Of a stretch of 38,302 nt of DNA, positions 2,336 through 8,627 are shown one piece after another. The translations under genes were made by a program, and so were the position numbers. The notes beneath the pieces are model-generated. The model saw only the letters and a program-made list of their open reading frames with translations. It ran no database searches and was not told where the DNA came from. The number at the start of each line of letters is the position of its first letter. Positions within the stretch are counted from its first letter, which is position 1. Origin of the DNA: a virus; IMG/VR virus record IMGVR_UViG_3300046515_000180, positions 1-38,302 of that record; one strand, given 5' to 3'.

Positions 2336-3595
2336 ATGCCCGAGCACACCGACACCGCACCCCCGGCACTCACCTTCGGCCAACGCGTCCAACGCGCCCG
2401 CGAACGCACCGGGAAATCCCGCGCCGTCGTCGCCGGACTCATGGACCAGTCCACCGAGTGGGTCAAAGCCATCGAGACAGGCCGCATCGGAATGCCCCGC
2501 CTCCCCAAACTCCTCCGCCTGGCGCACGTCATCGGGGTGGAAGACCTCGCTGAACTCACCGGCGACGAACGCCTCGCCACCGCCACGTACACCAAGGCCG
2601 AACACGGCGACCTGCCCATCCTCAAACGCGCCCTCACCTCCTACCAGCTCGCCCCCGAGGACCGCGAACCCGAACCCGCCGACGTCCTCGAAGCCCGGCT
2701 ACGGCGCGCCTGGCAGCTCTGGCACGACCGCGACCCCCAGACCACCCACGGCCGCACCCTCGAAGGCCACCGCACCCGCATCGTCCGCCTCCTCCCCCCG
2801 CTCCTCGCCGACGTGCAGCACTCCGCCCGCACCCTCCAAGGAGCAGACCGCAGGCGGGCCCTCGTCGCCCTCGCCGAGACCTACCACCTCGCCCAACTGT
2901 TCCTCTCCTTCCAGCCCGCGCCCGATCTCGTCGTCCTCACCGGCGACCGCGCCATGACCGCAGCCCAGGACGCCGACAGCCCGCGCGCCATCGCGGGCGC
3001 CGCCTGGTACATGAACCACGTCCACCGGGACGCCGGAGAGGCCGCAGAGGCACGCGTCGACCTCGCCGAGCAGGCAGCGGCACTCCTGCCGTCGACCGAG
3101 GACCCGGAGCACATCGCCCGCCGAGGCCTGCTGTACCTCGCGGTGGCCCTGTCGTACGCGAAGACCGGGCAGCAGGGGGATGCGTGGCGGTACTGGGACA
3201 AGGCCGACGCCGCCGCACGCCAGCTGGGGGACGACTACGCGCACCCGTGGCTGATCTTCGGGCGGGGCATCGTCGACGGGTACGCGATCACGATGTACAA
3301 CGACCTGATGCAGCCAGCGAAAGCCCTCGATGTCGCGGAGACCCTCAGTCTGGAGCAGATCCCGTCGGCGACCCGCCGCTCGTACCACTTGATCGAGTCG
3401 GCCCGGGCGCACGGGATGCTCGGGGAGGGCACGGCCGCGGTGTCGCTGCTGGGGAAGGCTTTCCGCGAGTCTCCGGAGACGATCCAGTACAACCTGCACA
3501 CCCGGTCGGTGTTGCCGGAGTTGGTGAAGTCGGGGCCGCGGATGGTCCGTGATGACGCGCTGGGCTTGGCCCGGGATTTGGGTGTCCCCGTGTGA
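2336..3595 (+). CDS. XRE-family helix-turn-helix regulator with TPR-like C-terminal region
   Basis: 419 residues, ATG at 2336 after CGGAG. Residues 13-73 form a Cro/CI-type helix-turn-helix (FGQRVQRARERTGKSRAVVA, then the recognition segment STEWVKAIETGR). The rest is helical and Ala/Arg/Leu-rich, with tandem helix pairs typical of the TPR-like sensor part of large Streptomyces XRE proteins. Such proteins commonly pair with DUF397 proteins and act in development or signalling (WhiJ-type systems); a DUF397 gene follows at 4380. The protein is too large to be a classic phage repressor, and the island lies between the lysis genes and attP, a usual place for lysogenic cargo. A perfect terminator closes the gene. 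Confidence 0.8.
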   Translation: MPEHTDTAPPALTFGQRVQRARERTGKSRAVVAGLMDQSTEWVKAIETGRIGMPRLPKLLRLAHVIGVEDLAELTGDERLATATYTKAEHGDLPILKRALTSYQLAPEDREPEPADVLEARLRRAWQLWHDRDPQTTHGRTLEGHRTRIVRLLPPLLADVQHSARTLQGADRRRALVALAETYHLAQLFLSFQPAPDLVVLTGDRAMTAAQDADSPRAIAGAAWYMNHVHRDAGEAAEARVDLAEQAAALLPSTEDPEHIARRGLLYLAVALSYAKTGQQGDAWRYWDKADAAARQLGDDYAHPWLIFGRGIVDGYAITMYNDLMQPAKALDVAETLSLEQIPSATRRSYHLIESARAHGMLGEGTAAVSLLGKAFRESPETIQYNLHTRSVLPELVKSGPRMVRDDALGLARDLGVPV

Positions 3596-4662: not shown

Positions 4663-4702
4663 TGACCCGCCGCAGCACCGTCCCTGGGACTGCGGCGGGT
4701 CA
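4663..4702. terminator. Bidirectional terminator between the DUF397 gene and the leftward XRE gene
   Basis: TGACCCGCCGCAG (4663-4675) and CTGCGGCGGGTCA (4690-4702) form a perfect 13-base stem with a 14-base loop. The right arm includes the stop codon of the leftward gene ending at 4700, so the hairpin can serve both converging transcripts. A weaker GACGAC/GTCGTC repeat (4633-4638 and 4655-4660) lies just before. Confidence 0.75.
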
Positions 4703-4918
4703 CCTCACGAGGTCGGCAAGCGGCACATTGAGGGCGTCGGCGATGAGGAGCAGGTCGTCCAGGCCGGGGATGCGGAACGCGTACTCCCACCGGTGAATCG
4801 TCCGATGGTCCCGCCCGATGAGTTCCCCGAGCTGAACCTGGGTGAGGTCCGCATGGATGCGGGCGTCCCGGATGCGTGCCCCGATCTCCCGGCGGCGGGC
4901 GTGTACCCAGTCGGGCAT
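4700..4918 (-). CDS. Small XRE-family helix-turn-helix protein
   Basis: 72 residues from the ATG at 4918 (MPDWVHARRREIGARIRDAR). A Cro/CI-type helix-turn-helix covers about residues 12-66, with LTQVQLGELIGRDHRTIHRWE as the two key helices (given in part) and LDDLLLIADALNVPLADLV at the end. A longer form from TTG 4984 would add 22 residues unlike the family, and it would begin inside the inverted repeat at 4968-4985; the shorter start is preferred although its RBS is weak. It may regulate the neighbouring island or act as a second lysogeny regulator. Confidence 0.75.
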   Translation of the reverse strand: MPDWVHARRREIGARIRDARIHADLTQVQLGELIGRDHRTIHRWEYAFRIPGLDDLLLIADALNVPLADLVR

Positions 4919-4967
4919 GGGGTCGAGTGGCACCCGCCCCACGCTGTAACGATCATGGCCTCTTGTC

Positions 4968-4985
4968 TTTGCCCAGCCAGGCAAA
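4968..4985. promoter_or_regulatory. Inverted repeat upstream of the leftward XRE gene
   Basis: TTTGCC (4968-4973) and GGCAAA (4980-4985) flank a 6-base spacer about 50 bases before the preferred start at 4918. The surrounding DNA is unusually AT-rich for this genome. An autoregulatory operator is plausible. Confidence 0.4.
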
Positions 4986-5209: not shown

Positions 5210-5360
5210 CCCGTGGTGCCGGCCTCCCCGCCGGGCAACCACAGGATCACGAGAGGCGCGTCTCAGGCGCGCGTGGGGGAGACGGCCTGCCCCTCCCGTA
5301 CGCGCCACTCTACGTGTTACTTGAACGTAAGTAAGACCCCTATATGGGCGATCCGATCGC

Positions 5361-5396
5361 AGTGGATCTGTGGGGTTGTGGACTTGATGTGGATTC
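5361..5396. repeat. Left cluster of arm-type-like repeats of attP
   Basis: Three copies of a GTGGA(C/T)-type motif: AGTGGATCT (5361-5369), TTGTGGACTT (5376-5385) and ATGTGGATTC (5387-5396). The same motif recurs on the other side of the core at 5634-5655. Tyrosine integrases of the lambda type bind such arm sites with their N-terminal domain; the assignment is inference. Confidence 0.5.
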
Positions 5397-5405
5397 TCGT
5401 CACGC

Positions 5406-5441
5406 AACCGGCCCCCCGAAGATCACTCCGGAGGGCCGGTT
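5406..5441. terminator. Hairpin, probable terminator left of the attP core
   Basis: AACCGGCCC (5406-5414) pairs perfectly with GGGCCGGTT (5433-5441); the loop can pair further through CCG/CGG. It lies 26 bases from the tRNA-like core and would stop transcripts coming from either side. Confidence 0.6.
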
Positions 5442-5466
5442 CAGGTCGCTGACCTGCCACTTATCC

Positions 5467-5514
5467 TGGTGGGCGCGGACGGTTTCGAACCGCCGACATC
5501 CGCCTTGTAAGGGC
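5467..5514 (-). other. tRNA 3' half, best fit tRNA-Val(UAC): probable attP core
   Basis: On the minus strand these 48 bases read as the end of a tRNA. There is an anticodon loop CTTACAA (5511-5505, anticodon UAC), 3' anticodon stem GGCGG, variable loop ATGTC, T arm GGCGG-TTCGAAA-CCGTC, 3' acceptor strand CGCGCCC, discriminator A and an encoded CCA (5469-5467). The 5' half of a tRNA is absent: from position 28 of the tRNA upward the sequence no longer pairs (AA instead of a C-Y pair). A tRNA 3' end directly beside an integrase gene is the classical crossover segment of a tRNA-integrating phage. The tRNA nature is seen directly; the Val identity rests on the 7-base loop, and the attP role follows from context. 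Confidence 0.8.
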
Positions 5515-5530
5515 TTCGTTCCCGCAGGTC

Positions 5531-5570
5531 AGACCCGCCAAGACTCGCCGAGACTCGCCGAGACTCATTC
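5531..5570. repeat. Tandem 10-base repeats beside the attP core
   Basis: Four units with exactly 10-base period: AGACCCGCCA (5531-5540), AGACTCGCCG (5541-5550), AGACTCGCCG (5551-5560) and AGACTCATTC (5561-5570), ending in an AT-richer stretch. A related copy (CCGAGTCTCGCCGAG) lies at 5603-5617. The same decamer in opposite orientation is found at 7971-8000 beside the early promoter. One-turn spacing fits cooperative binding of an excisionase-like protein. Confidence 0.65.
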
Positions 5571-5633
5571 TCTCTAACCCGGGCCCCCTAATCACGGATT
5601 CACCGAGTCTCGCCGAGCGGCCCCGAGGGGGCG

Positions 5634-5655
5634 TTGTGGACTCCTTGTGGACTCC
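5634..5655. repeat. Right arm-type-like direct repeats of attP
   Basis: TTGTGGACTCC occurs twice in tandem (5634-5644 and 5645-5655). An inverted copy, GGAGTCCAC, lies at 5682-5690 inside the end of the integrase gene. Together with the 5361-5396 cluster they flank the tRNA-like core, as integrase arm sites do. Confidence 0.6.
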
Positions 5656-5667
5656 AGCCCGGAAACC

Positions 5668-6954
5668 TCACTCAACCGCCCGGAGTCCACTACCCGCCTC
5701 CCCCGACAGCGCAGCCCGCACGTTCTCCCGTGCACCCTCGCTCTCGTGCGTGTAGATCCACGTCACCTTCCCGCCCCGCTTCTGCCCGAGGAACGCCTGC
5801 GTGTCCCGCTCCGACACACCCTTCAGGTGCAGACGGCTCGTCACGTCATGCCGGTACTCGTACGGACGCGGCCACCACTCAGGCCGCCCCGTCTCCGGGT
5901 TCTCCACCATCCGCGCCACACCGGCCTGGATGCAGGCACGACGCCACGGCCGGCGAATGTTGTTGACGTTCAGCGCGGCGCCCCGCGGCCCACGGAAGAT
6001 CAGTTCCTCCGTATGCAGATCGAAGCCGTCCCCGACCTTCGAACGGGTCGCCTTCGGCTGCCACTTCGCGAGCATCCACTGCACCGCCTCCCACGCCGTG
6101 GGCGTGAGTGGCACCGCCCGGAACCCCGCCTCCGTCTTGGGTGTCGCCTGCCGGCGCAAGCGCCCGTTGTCACTGACGAGGATCTCCTTGACGTACAGCA
6201 GGCGCTCTTCCTCGTTGAGGCAGTTGAGCCGCGCTCCCGCGACCTCGCCCGGGCGCATTGCTGTCTCGTAGGCAAAATCGCGGAAGATCCGCTGGTAGTA
6301 CTCGGGCAGCGCAGCATGGATGAGGTCGTACTGCGCAGCCGTCGGAGGCTTCAGATCGTCCGGGTGCTTCACCGGCTTCGTCGCCGTCATCGACAAGTGC
6401 GTCGCCGGGTTGGTGGCTATGCGCTCCCCGTCCTTGATAGCCGCGCTGAGGAGCGCAACGAGCAGCTCCTTGACCTTCTTCTGCGTCTCCCAGCCCTTCA
6501 CCTCATGGGTGAGCCACTTCTGAAGAGCCATGTACTCCAGGTCGATCAGCCGCCACTCGCCCCACTTGGGCTCGATGTGCGTACGCCACAGACCGAGTTT
6601 CCGGTTCCTGGTGGTCGTGGTGACCTTCGCCTGCTCAACCTCCCAGAAATCAGCCCACCACCTGGCAAGCTTGATCTTGCCGCGCTCCGGATCGCGGTAC
6701 GTCCGCTCACGAACCTCGGTGCGGGACTTGTCGAGGAAAGCCTCCGCAGCCTTCTTCCCACCCTCAGAGATCGGGAAGTTCTTCGCCTTCTGCTTCCCGG
6801 CCGGGTCCCGGTACCGGGCCTGCCAGGAGCCGATGCAGTCCCTGCGGGGCCGGCGGTCGCCGTACTCGGCTGGGGGGTACTCGGCCACGCAAAGGTCGCA
6901 GCCGCATGCCTTGCTGCGGACCTGCCGCGGATTGTTCTGTGCCCTACGCGGCAT
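5668..6954 (-). CDS. int: Tyrosine integrase (site-specific recombinase)
   Basis: 428 residues, ATG at 6954, ending 150 bases from the tRNA-like core it should act on. An N-terminal Cys-containing segment (CGCDLCVAEYPP) and an Arg/Lys-rich region may bind arm sites. A core-binding domain spans about 95-185 and the catalytic domain about 200-415. Catalytic residues visible: Arg234 (AMRPGE), Lys273 (TPKTEAGFR), Arg368 in YEYRHD, Tyr401 in WIYTHE as the nucleophile. The usual first His of HxxR is Tyr365, common in actinobacterial relatives, and the later His of the LGH box is Gln391, which is less usual. It catalyses recombination of attP with a tRNA attB. It faces away from the early operon and is read leftward with the two genes upstream. 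Confidence 0.95.
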   Translation of the reverse strand: MPRRAQNNPRQVRSKACGCDLCVAEYPPAEYGDRRPRRDCIGSWQARYRDPAGKQKAKNFPISEGGKKAAEAFLDKSRTEVRERTYRDPERGKIKLARWWADFWEVEQAKVTTTTRNRKLGLWRTHIEPKWGEWRLIDLEYMALQKWLTHEVKGWETQKKVKELLVALLSAAIKDGERIATNPATHLSMTATKPVKHPDDLKPPTAAQYDLIHAALPEYYQRIFRDFAYETAMRPGEVAGARLNCLNEEERLLYVKEILVSDNGRLRRQATPKTEAGFRAVPLTPTAWEAVQWMLAKWQPKATRSKVGDGFDLHTEELIFRGPRGAALNVNNIRRPWRRACIQAGVARMVENPETGRPEWWPRPYEYRHDVTSRLHLKGVSERDTQAFLGQKRGGKVTWIYTHESEGARENVRAALSGEAGSGLRAVE

Positions 6955-6986
6955 GTCGCTTCACCTCCGCCTGTGAGGCGTGGTGG

Positions 6987-7235
6987 CTACGCTCCATGGT
7001 TCATCACCTGATCACTCCTCCGCTGTTCTGGTACGCGGGGGAGCAAATCGATAGCTTCCCCGCACCAGCAGATTGCACCCAACTCGGGCTGCACTACAGC
7101 GAGTTCGGCCATGATGGCGCGCACGACCGTGACGCTGCGTTCATAGCCAAGGAGGCGGGGGAGGGTGATGGTCCGGGCGTCAGAATCGAAGACGCGGAAC
7201 TCGGGCCGAGCGGTGAATCTGACGTGCACGCACAT
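6987..7235 (-). CDS. Small hypothetical protein upstream of the integrase
   Basis: 82 residues, ATG at 7235 with AGGGG about 8 bases upstream on the minus strand. It begins MCVHVRFTARPEFRVFDSDA, with a later region VVRAIMAELAVVQPELGAIC and the Cys-Trp-Cys run CWCGEA. No family was recognised. The gap to the integrase start is 32 bases, so the two genes probably form one leftward operon. Its role could be in lysogeny or integration control, but nothing in the sequence proves this. Confidence 0.6.
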   Translation of the reverse strand: MCVHVRFTARPEFRVFDSDARTITLPRLLGYERSVTVVRAIMAELAVVQPELGAICWCGEAIDLLPRVPEQRRSDQVMNHGA

Positions 7236-7378
7236 GTGCTACCCCTGGATCGCAGGCAGATGGGAACCTGCGGCCGAAGGGGGAGGACATCGGCCGTGCG
7301 CACGACCGTACCCCCAAGTGGTGGAATTTTCGACCATTAGTGAACGTGTTGTTGCGAAAACATCACCGCGAGTGAGCA

Positions 7379-7392
7379 ATGCATTTATGCAT
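7379..7392. promoter_or_regulatory. Dyad repeat in the AT-rich gap between repressor and small gene
   Basis: ATGCAT (7379-7384) and ATGCAT (7387-7392) flank TT; an offset outer pair GTGAG/CTCAC (7372-7376 and 7396-7400) surrounds them. It lies just past the end of the repressor gene and upstream of the leftward 7235 gene, in a locally AT-rich stretch. It may be an operator or a weak terminator. Confidence 0.4.
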
Positions 7393-7429
7393 GGACTCAC
7401 GAACCACGCGAAGGGTTGTACAGCAATCG

Positions 7430-7813
7430 CTACGGCTTCGCGGAGCGGCCCTCGTTAGCCTCGTTCCACTCATTCAGCGCGCGTAGCTGCGCCTCCTGCG
7501 CGTGCTGCTGTTCGGCTGTGAGGCCGCGGATGAGGTTGAGGATCCGCTCTTCAGCGTCGGGGCCGAGGTCGCCCGGGGTTGCGCGGTCGGTCGCCGCGAA
7601 GAGCTCCGCCTCGGTGAACTTCGGGTAGGCCTTCGCGAGGGCGCGCAGTGCGGCTGGCCGAGGCTTCCGCTTGCGGTTCATCCAGAAGTTCACGGTGGAC
7701 CCGTGCACGTCGATTGCGTCACCGATCTGCTTCTCGGTGACGTTGTACTCCTCCTTGAGCCGCTTGAGGAGCTGGGGAAAGTCCTCGGCGGGGCGGGGGT
7801 CGGCGTTGTCCAC
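7430..7813 (-). CDS. Immunity repressor candidate, XRE-family
   Basis: 127 residues from GTG 7813 (VDNADPRPAEDFPQLLKRLK). A helix-turn-helix spans about residues 13-62, with TEKQIGDAIDVHGSTVNFWM as the core motif. The C-terminal third is a long charged helix (ERILNLIRGLTAEQQHAQEA), likely for dimerisation. No LexA-type peptidase domain is present, so RecA-driven self-cleavage is not expected. A TTG at 7849 would add 12 residues but falls inside the dyad at 7835-7861. From GTG 7813 translation could be leaderless, because a -35/-10-like pair (TTGCAA, GAATCT) lies just upstream. Its divergent position opposite Cro-like and Xis-like genes, with repeated half-sites between, supports the repressor role. 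Confidence 0.8.
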   Translation of the reverse strand: MDNADPRPAEDFPQLLKRLKEEYNVTEKQIGDAIDVHGSTVNFWMNRKRKPRPAALRALAKAYPKFTEAELFAATDRATPGDLGPDAEERILNLIRGLTAEQQHAQEAQLRALNEWNEANEGRSAKP

Positions 7814-7834
7814 AGGGCAAGATTCCCGCACCGG

Positions 7835-7861
7835 TTCTACTTTTTGCAAGCGAAAGTAGAA
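7835..7861. promoter_or_regulatory. Perfect dyad at the repressor promoter, candidate operator
   Basis: TTCTACTTT (7835-7843) and AAAGTAGAA (7853-7861) are perfect 9-base arms around a 9-base spacer, just upstream of the preferred repressor start. Its outer half-site TTCTAC/GTAGAA resembles the TTCGAC/GTAGAA elements at 8005-8023 and 8346-8364, so one regulator may bind all of them. A separate 10-base palindrome, GTCATATGAC, lies at 7917-7926. Confidence 0.6.
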
Positions 7862-7970
7862 GCGTGGCGCAAAGCTATTCAGTGCGCGACCTCCCCGTCA
7901 CGCGCTGTGCTAGCGAGTCATATGACAGCAGCCTAGAACAGACTTTCGACTGACGCACCCCCACGAAGCT

Positions 7971-8000
7971 ACTCGGCGAATCTCGGCGAGACTCGTTGAC
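7971..8000. repeat. Decamer repeats upstream of the early promoter, related to those in attP
   Basis: Three 10-base units in register: ACTCGGCGAA (7971-7980), TCTCGGCGAG (7981-7990), ACTCGTTGAC (7991-8000). The motif CTCGGCGA(A/G)TCT is the reverse complement of the attP decamers at 5541-5560. The last unit runs into the -35 element TTGACA at 7996. Confidence 0.65.
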
Positions 8001-8024
8001 ATCATTCGACTTCGACTGTAGAAA
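7996..8024 (+). promoter_or_regulatory. Early rightward promoter with overlapping operator half-sites
   Basis: TTGACA (7996-8001), a spacer of exactly 17 bases, then TAGAAA (8019-8024) give a near-consensus sigma-70/HrdB-type promoter, rare in this GC-rich window. The spacer holds two direct TTCGAC copies (8005-8010 and 8011-8016), and with GTAGAA (8018-8023) the second makes a near-palindrome. This fits a repressor-controlled early promoter driving the 8081 gene and the long operon behind it. Confidence 0.8.
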
Positions 8025-8080
8025 TGTCACATCACCCCGGAAGCGGGGAGACCAACAACACCACCTGGCACGGGGAACAC

Positions 8081-8395
8081 ATGCCGAAACTCCACCGCAA
8101 GGGCGAAGGCAAGCCACTCAGAGCCGCCATGGAGCGAGCCGGACTCACGGGTCCCGAACTCGCCGAGGCCACCAAGGAAGTGGACCCCGCCGGACGGGGC
8201 ATCAGTCCCGCCACCGTCGGACGCCTCGCCGGACGCGGCAAAACCTCTCGCGACCCATGCGAGTGGAAGACCGCCTGGTTCGTCGCCGAAGCACTGCACC
8301 GGAAGACGAACGCCCCCCTCCAGGACCTCTTTTCCATGCCCCCACATTCGACTTCGACAATCGAAAGGTCAAGGTCCGATGCCGAAGAAGACTGA
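8081..8395 (+). CDS. Cro-like helix-turn-helix regulator
   Basis: 104 residues, ATG at 8081 behind GGGGAAC; this is the first gene after the early promoter. Residues 10-75 resemble an XRE helix-turn-helix: GKPLRAAMERAGLTGPELAE, then GISPATVGRLAGRGKTS as the recognition part. The longer frame from 8024 would start inside the -10 element and is rejected. As the first early product opposite the repressor it is the natural Cro or anti-repressor counterpart. The distal end of the gene carries a second copy of the TTCGACTTCGAC operator motif, and it overlaps the next gene by 17 bases. Confidence 0.7.
   Translation: MPKLHRKGEGKPLRAAMERAGLTGPELAEATKEVDPAGRGISPATVGRLAGRGKTSRDPCEWKTAWFVAEALHRKTNAPLQDLFSMPPHSTSTIERSRSDAEED
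8345..8364. promoter_or_regulatory. Second copy of the immunity-region operator motif
   Basis: ATTCGACTTCGAC (8345-8357) is identical over 13 bases to 8004-8016 in the early promoter. It is again followed after one base by a degenerate inverted half-site (ATCGAA, 8359-8364). It sits 15 bases before the ATG at 8379, inside the end of the preceding gene, and could give separate control of the Xis-like gene. Confidence 0.6.
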
Positions 8396-8627
8396 CCGCC
8401 GCGTCCCCCTCCCGGCCGGCCTCATCCCCCTCCTCGACCAGCAGCAGCTGGAGACGTACTACGACGTCTCCGACTGGCAGGTCCTCCAGTGGATCAAGCA
8501 GGGGATGCCCGTCGAGCCGTTCGCCGGCCGTGGTCGTCGGTTCGACCTCGCCAAGTGCGCCGCGTGGCATGCCGCAAACGCATCGCCGGACGCGGGCCGC
8601 GTCGCGCAGCTCGCTTCCGCGGGCTGA
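8379..8627 (+). CDS. Excisionase-like / MerR-type winged helix DNA-binding protein
   Basis: 82 residues, ATG at 8379, RBS-like AAGGTC upstream. The sequence LLDQQQLETYYDVSDWQVLQ with the following WIKQGMPVEPFAGRGRRFDL matches the compact winged helix shared by MerR-like excisionases and small packaging proteins such as Nu1. Its place as second early gene, near int and the attP decamers, favours excisionase or a Cox-type dual regulator. It is a single-domain protein; the DNA-binding call is firm and the exact role is inferred. Confidence 0.65.
   Translation: MPKKTDRRVPLPAGLIPLLDQQQLETYYDVSDWQVLQWIKQGMPVEPFAGRGRRFDLAKCAAWHAANASPDAGRVAQLASAG

Follow-up and report, generated by a model that had tools for sequence, protein, structure and literature searches.

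The virus record analysed here (IMG/VR record IMGVR_UViG_3300046515_000180, 38,302 bases, referred to below as the window) carries a regulatory block in the order attP - int(-) - rep(-) / cro(+) xis(+), in which a phage attachment site (attP) and the genes for an integrase and a repressor-like protein are followed by a divergent operon for a Cro-like protein and a predicted excisionase, Xis. Arrays of a 10-base repeat (decamer) lie both in attP and at the early promoter, and the question addressed is which protein they serve. The elements concerned are the following:

About 5466-5514, minus strand: attP core, the 3' end of tRNA-Val(TAC), with matches in Streptomyces genomes.
5530-5566, plus strand: decamer array 1 in attP, about 3.7 units of GAGACTCGCC.
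5595-5627, plus strand: decamer array 2 in attP, three weaker units; an equivalent block stands in relatives at a spacing of 55, 65 or 75 bp.
5668-6954, minus strand: tyrosine integrase gene (int), Pfam PF00589 at an expectation value (E) of 9e-12 and phrog_1 at E 3e-41.
7430-7849, minus strand: HTH_3 repressor-like gene (rep), Pfam PF01381 E 9e-7, syntenic in related phages, start codon uncertain.
7972-7995, minus strand: decamer array at the early promoter; the corresponding array matches the phage's own attP array in relatives.
7996-8024, plus strand: predicted early (lytic) promoter TTGACA-N17-TAGAAA, read from the sequence and found in the same place in relatives.
8081-8395, plus strand: Cro-like protein, phrog_14639 (cro-like repressor) E 1e-36.
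8379-8627, plus strand: Xis, predicted winged-helix excisionase with a phrog_66 match, the proposed binder of all three arrays.

Both attP arrays sit between the attP core and the 3' end of int. Array 1 reads CAGACCCGCC AAGACTCGCC GAGACTCGCC GAGACTC, with a self-identity of 0.80 at lag 10 against 0.36 or less at every other lag from 5 to 15, and array 2 reads CGGATTCACC GAGTCTCGCC GAGCGGCCCC GAG. The promoter array is the reverse complement of the attP arrays, reads CTCGGCGAATCTCGGCGAGACTC and ends against the TTGACA box (7996-8001), which is followed by TAGAAA (8019-8024) and then by the cro-xis operon. When a 23-base model of two decamer units was run over the whole window, the attP copies scored 22/23 and 20/23 and the promoter copy 21/23, and nothing outside these two loci scored above 16. 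The highest score in 200 dinucleotide-preserving shuffles of the whole window was 18, and none of 42,400 shuffled 180-bp pieces reached 21; a chance repeat was rejected on the basis of these shuffles. Array 2 alone scores 18/23, equal to the shuffled maximum, and is taken as real because it is conserved in relatives. The preliminary description of this DNA had reported a 10-base-period array beside the attP core and its reverse complement running into TTGACA, and both observations hold at 5530-5566 and 7972-7995; array 2 and the putative integrase arm-type repeats that flank the arrays (see below) had been missed.

A distant blastn search returned the phages OnionKnight, SF3, VWB and mu1/6, all with the gene order of the window. 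The two-array layout is also present in these four phages with different decamers: in VWB the attP decamer is GAGTCTCAGT and the promoter decamer CTCACTGAAACTCACTGAAACTC, and in SF3, OnionKnight and mu1/6 the attP and promoter decamers likewise form a matched pair particular to the phage. When the entire VWB genome was scanned for the decamer of VWB itself, only attP and the early promoter were found. For quantitative comparison, a set of 52 dereplicated phages and prophages was assembled through Xis and Int searches in viral contigs and an Xis search in genomes, with inclusion requiring the int, rep, cro and xis module together with both array regions; where a host is named, it is Streptomyces or Kitasatospora. 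Close relatives among the 52 are not independent events, and the trees used below handle this kinship in part.

Co-variation of the two sites was measured in each phage as the best ungapped match between the attP block and the reverse complement of the promoter block. The mean for own pairs was 16.2, compared with 8.9 for pairs of phages whose Xis proteins are less than 50% identical and 8.4 (standard deviation 1.3) for shuffled DNA, and none of 20,000 permuted pairings reached the observed mean. The own score exceeded that of dissimilar partners in 51 of the 52 phages. Since the regions compared are non-homologous and no motif definition enters the comparison, flanking homology cannot yield this co-variation. 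When decamers were sorted into three main classes, the class was the same at both sites in all 33 phages that have a main class at both. Spacing is also constrained, as the attP blocks stand 55, 65 or 75 bp apart in most phages (33 of 47 spacings are 5 modulo 10) and the promoter units hold a constant phase relative to the -35 box, 133 of 158 CTC triplets falling in phase 3-5.

The identity of the protein that sets the decamer was approached by regression and by trees. Cross-site motif similarity was predicted by the similarity of Xis (standardised beta 0.46) and of Cro (0.31), and not by that of Rep (0.07) or Int (0.05). On the protein trees the attP motif class changes three times for Xis, seven times for Cro, seven for Int and eight for Rep. 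In approximately unbiased (AU) tests in which a class was held together, the Xis tree was not rejected (p 0.52 and 0.38) and the Cro tree was rejected (p 0.021 and 0.011), as were class clades for Int and Rep. Motif similarity from attP to attP, in contrast, is dominated by linkage to Int (beta 0.41) and is less informative. As a control, an operator-like repeat inside the cro-xis cassette was treated in the same way:

8003-8029, plus strand: operator-like repeat over the promoter, with a partner at 8345-8371 at the cro/xis junction, 85% identical.

This repeat also tracked Xis and Cro, indicating that linkage can give such a signal and that the tree test on attP is the discriminating one. Linkage alone would favour Int at attP, since the attP array adjoins int.

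That adjacency is also what makes a role as integrase arm-type sites worth weighing, with the promoter copy then being an Int site or an unrelated one. Tyrosine integrases usually have direct-repeat arm sites, and the decamers lie in attP next to int. However, the motif does not follow Int in the regression, in the number of class changes or in the AU test, and a separate repeat is available as the arm-type candidate:

5375-5395, plus strand: outer-arm member of a candidate Int arm-type repeat pair, GT TGTGGACT N3 TGTGGATT; role putative.
5633-5653, plus strand: int-proximal member, TGTGGACT N3 TGTGGACT; role likewise putative.

A repeat search paired 5375-5395 with 5630-5667 at a spacing of 258, and equivalent pairs on both arms are present in OnionKnight, SF3 and mu1/6. 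On these two grounds, the motif not following Int and the separate arm-type repeat, the arm-site explanation of the decamers was rejected, and it is given a very slim chance of being right. In several phages, direct-repeat pairs of TGTGGACT that are candidate Int arm-type sites flank the attP core at a distance of about 258 bp from each other.

The Cro-like protein at 8081 is the canonical regulator for this type of promoter, and its similarity also predicts motif similarity (the beta of 0.31 above), so that a shared binder joining lytic regulation to the attachment site could be sought there. The seven class changes on its tree, against three for Xis, and the rejection of its class clades argue otherwise. 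Proteins of the Xre/Cro type usually recognise palindromes, to which they bind as dimers, and not long arrays of 10-bp direct repeats, and the pair at 8003-8029 and 8345-8371 is available for Cro or Rep. A case within the set separates the two candidates further. The phage L039 carries a Cro 92% identical to that of the window, a Rep 90% and an Int 81% identical, yet its Xis, which has an inserted wing, shares only 60% identity, and the decamer in its attP is GAGTGGTTCC where that of the window is GAGACTCGCC. The role of Cro is not separable by regression alone and is separated only by the trees and by L039; taken with these, the Cro explanation is improbable. The promoter array of L039 is mixed, and only its distal unit (GAGTGGTTTC) resembles the new attP decamer, as if this array were still adapting after a swap of Xis.

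Within the Xis group of the window, wing type and decamer type correspond. All 13 phages whose wing ends in RG have C(G/A)CC decamers, and all 15 with another wing (GRQ, GRE, GGG or a longer insert) have (T/C)TCC decamers. Phages such as L045, L054 and L170, whose decamers are too few or mixed, were not part of the count; L054, in which the Xis wing carries the insert and most units are C(G/A)CC, would be an exception to the wing rule if counted. Five independent switches on the Int tree were all concordant with wing type, five pairs being too few for formal significance. Regression by regions within Xis placed the signal in the N-terminus and the wing. The proposed wing code rests on the wing-class count, because the regional regression did not single out the recognition helix.

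The preliminary description had staked its proposal of a single regulator for excision and the lytic switch in part on the decamers being conserved in related phages. The arrays are conserved there and co-vary within each phage, which lends support to a dual regulator as judged from sequence comparison. It had left the choice between two candidates, the Xis-like protein at 8379 and the Cro-like protein at 8081; the former is now favoured, and the latter disfavoured by the trees, the AU test and the wing types.

A host protein could in principle occupy both arrays, as the Streptomyces regulator BldC binds direct repeats (PMC5859096). Against this, the decamers vary among phages of one host genus and follow the phage Xis, and they are GC-rich where BldC sites are AT-rich; the chance that a host BldC-type protein is responsible appears very small.

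The Xis of the window has 82 residues and on its own gave no Pfam match. Among its homologues, 22 of 25 match Pfam HTH_17 (PF12728; best E 4e-7), and the window protein matches phrog_66, annotated as excisionase and transcriptional regulator (E 1.5e-6). These homologue profiles, together with phrog_66, place Xis among the HTH_17 winged-helix excisionases. It also matches phrog_57, terminase small subunit (E 1.5e-8), a label whose proteins share the fold. A terminase small subunit of the gpNu1 type, which would be expected beside the large terminase gene and with a region that interacts with the ATPase, was considered and rejected: the 82-residue gene lies behind cro, and some 21 kb separate it from the large-subunit gene in VWB. 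In profile searches against the PDB, Xis matched gpNu1, BldC (E 1.2e-5) and, more weakly, RdfS (E 0.03). Foldseek with an AlphaFold model of Xis returned BldC, RdfS (8dgl) and Pukovnik Xis (4j2n) with best-chain probabilities of 0.94-1.00 and E of 0.03-0.5, so that an Xis/RdfS-like fold is found on a modest model. These three are proteins that either occupy tandem repeats in head-to-tail fashion or build filaments on DNA (PMC5859096, PMC7498355, PMC11963761). The candidate tandem sites in attP beside the putative Int arm-type repeats would be a further trait of an excisionase. The RefSeq name of mu1/6 gp9, 'excisionase and transcriptional regulator', is the PHROG label and was not counted as experimental evidence. 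In the public VWB record (L003), attP array 2 (141-167) is labelled a transcription terminator and the Xis gene (2870-3103) a terminase small subunit; compared with the sequences described here, both labels look wrong.

Taken together, Xis probably binds the decamers at attP, in a presumed role in excision, and at the cro-xis promoter, where its effect would most likely be repression. Winged-helix monomers of Xis would occupy the decamers head to tail, one per helical turn. At attP, Xis would fill arrays 1 and 2 and bend the DNA of the int-side arm, upon which Int would excise the prophage. At the cro-xis promoter, it would fill the inverted array at 7972-7995 with the last half-unit against the -35 box; with this box covered, cro-xis would most likely be repressed once Xis had accumulated, giving negative autoregulation and a pulse-like start of lytic growth. 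The divergent rep promoter may be damped too by Xis on the promoter array. We infer occlusion and autorepression from the last half-unit of the promoter array, which abuts the -35 box, and from the VWB class, in which units run past the -35 box into the spacer; RdfS acts in this way at its own promoter.

The main rival to autorepression accepts Xis on both arrays and has it activate the early promoter instead, by positive feedback or by recruiting RNA polymerase upstream of the -35 box. The array does lie directly upstream of this box and in phase with it, and XisF4 of Pf4, encoded divergently from its repressor gene, activates its own expression (PMC7379572). However, occlusion accords better with the abutting half-unit and with the VWB-class units in the spacer, and repression is the effect of RdfS on its own promoter (PMC11963761) and of Apl on pR and pL (PMC7498355). 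Activation is rather unlikely.

Several points weigh against a dual role for Xis with autorepression. The sign of the regulation is taken from geometry only. Identities of Xis and Cro are correlated (0.68) as the two are co-inherited, so that Cro is only made less likely. By the criteria applied, the promoter array is weak or lacking in some phages (L042, L052 and L174), and 19 of the 52 phages lack a class at one site or both, or fall in minor classes. The motif and wing classes were set after the sequences had been seen, the sole exception among the tests being the class-free co-variation test. Finally, the AlphaFold model of Xis is of modest quality (mean predicted local distance difference test score 73), and Foldseek with this model gave no match with E below 0.001.

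The rep and cro-xis genes are divergent in the window and in relatives, and the region between and within them holds further candidate regulatory sites:

7834-7861, no strand assigned: near-perfect palindrome TTCTACTTTTTGCAAGCGAAAGTAGAA preceding rep; 47 of 52 relatives have the pattern.

This palindrome is likely the Rep operator. The repeat pair at 8003-8029 and 8345-8371, found in 40 of 52 relatives, represents candidate Cro or Rep operators, of which the copy at 8345-8371 could give separate control of xis. A sigma-70 scan, in which the -10 box must end in T, did not return the TTGACA/TAGAAA pair. Around attP, Streptomyces genomes contain close matches to the core segment, at 98-100% in two of the three that were searched, and for two of the attP-core matches (L181 and L182) ARAGORN called tRNA-Val(TAC) as intact. 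An inverted repeat, TGACCTGC / GCAGGTCA at 5450-5457 and 5525-5532, closely flanks the core, and words like GACCTGC occur near it in many relatives. Across attP from int lies a helix-turn-helix (HTH) gene (4700-4984, minus strand) similar to OnionKnight gp29. An Rfam scan of 5300-8100 found no RNA element, and a plasmid search gave nothing useful.

On balance we lean towards a broader picture in which a single BldC-like excisionase serves a whole radiation of temperate Streptomyces phages in two ways, in excision and in early-promoter feedback within a lambdoid rep/cro-xis switch. Its specificity would have switched repeatedly with the arrays re-evolving in concert, the wing reading the decamer code, giving each phage a private circuit. 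Phage sets that differ in decamer and Xis wing could then serve as a natural mutagenesis experiment for the winged-helix DNA code. The integrases of VWB and mu1/6 already drive cloning vectors, and the arrays point to the likely excision factor for both vector systems. In the open-access literature no such case in a Streptomyces phage was found, which does not in itself establish newness in VWB or mu1/6.

Among known systems, RdfS of ICEMlSymR7A is like Xis a winged-helix recombination directionality factor and matches it in profile and fold. It binds attP beside an Int arm site as well as its own promoter, with negative autoregulation (PMC11963761). In contrast, it belongs to a conjugative element and no consensus motif was found for it, whereas clear phage-specific decamers are present here. 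BldC of Streptomyces is similarly a winged-helix protein, with head-to-tail binding on direct repeats (PMC5859096). It differs in being a host developmental regulator with 9-bp AT-rich repeats. To our knowledge it has no role in recombination. The Xis proteins of the mycobacteriophages Pukovnik and L5 are actinobacteriophage excisionases that work with a tyrosine integrase, with 4j2n (Pukovnik) as a structural match. We know of no second array at an early promoter in either phage. According to work cited in PMC7498355, both proteins bend att DNA and Pukovnik Xis binds tandem repeats. XisF4 of Pf4 is likewise an excisionase divergent from a repressor gene and itself a transcription regulator, though in a filamentous phage and reported to activate itself and PA0727 (PMC7379572).

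The preliminary description had likened the system to Cox of P2 and Apl of 186, and the logic is indeed shared. In those phages direct repeats about one helical turn apart lie at attP and at the lytic/lysogenic promoters, and one small HTH protein of the early operon is proposed for both sites (PMC7498355); the window likewise has the same type of site at attP and at its lysis-lysogeny promoters. The likeness does not extend to promoter layout or to relationship at the Pfam level. In P2-like phages the promoters are face to face and Apl or Cox is the first gene, whereas here rep and cro-xis are divergent and a Cro-like gene precedes xis. The homologues of Xis fall in HTH_17, and the Cox/Apl family was absent from the Pfam hits of the window protein and its homologues at E up to 1, Cox and Apl never having been compared with Xis pairwise. 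What purpose Apl serves by repressing its own promoter is, according to PMC7498355, poorly understood. The best-known dual excisionase-regulators are those of P2-like enterophages; in dozens of Streptomyces phages their logic now emerges with an apparently unrelated protein and the opposite promoter layout.

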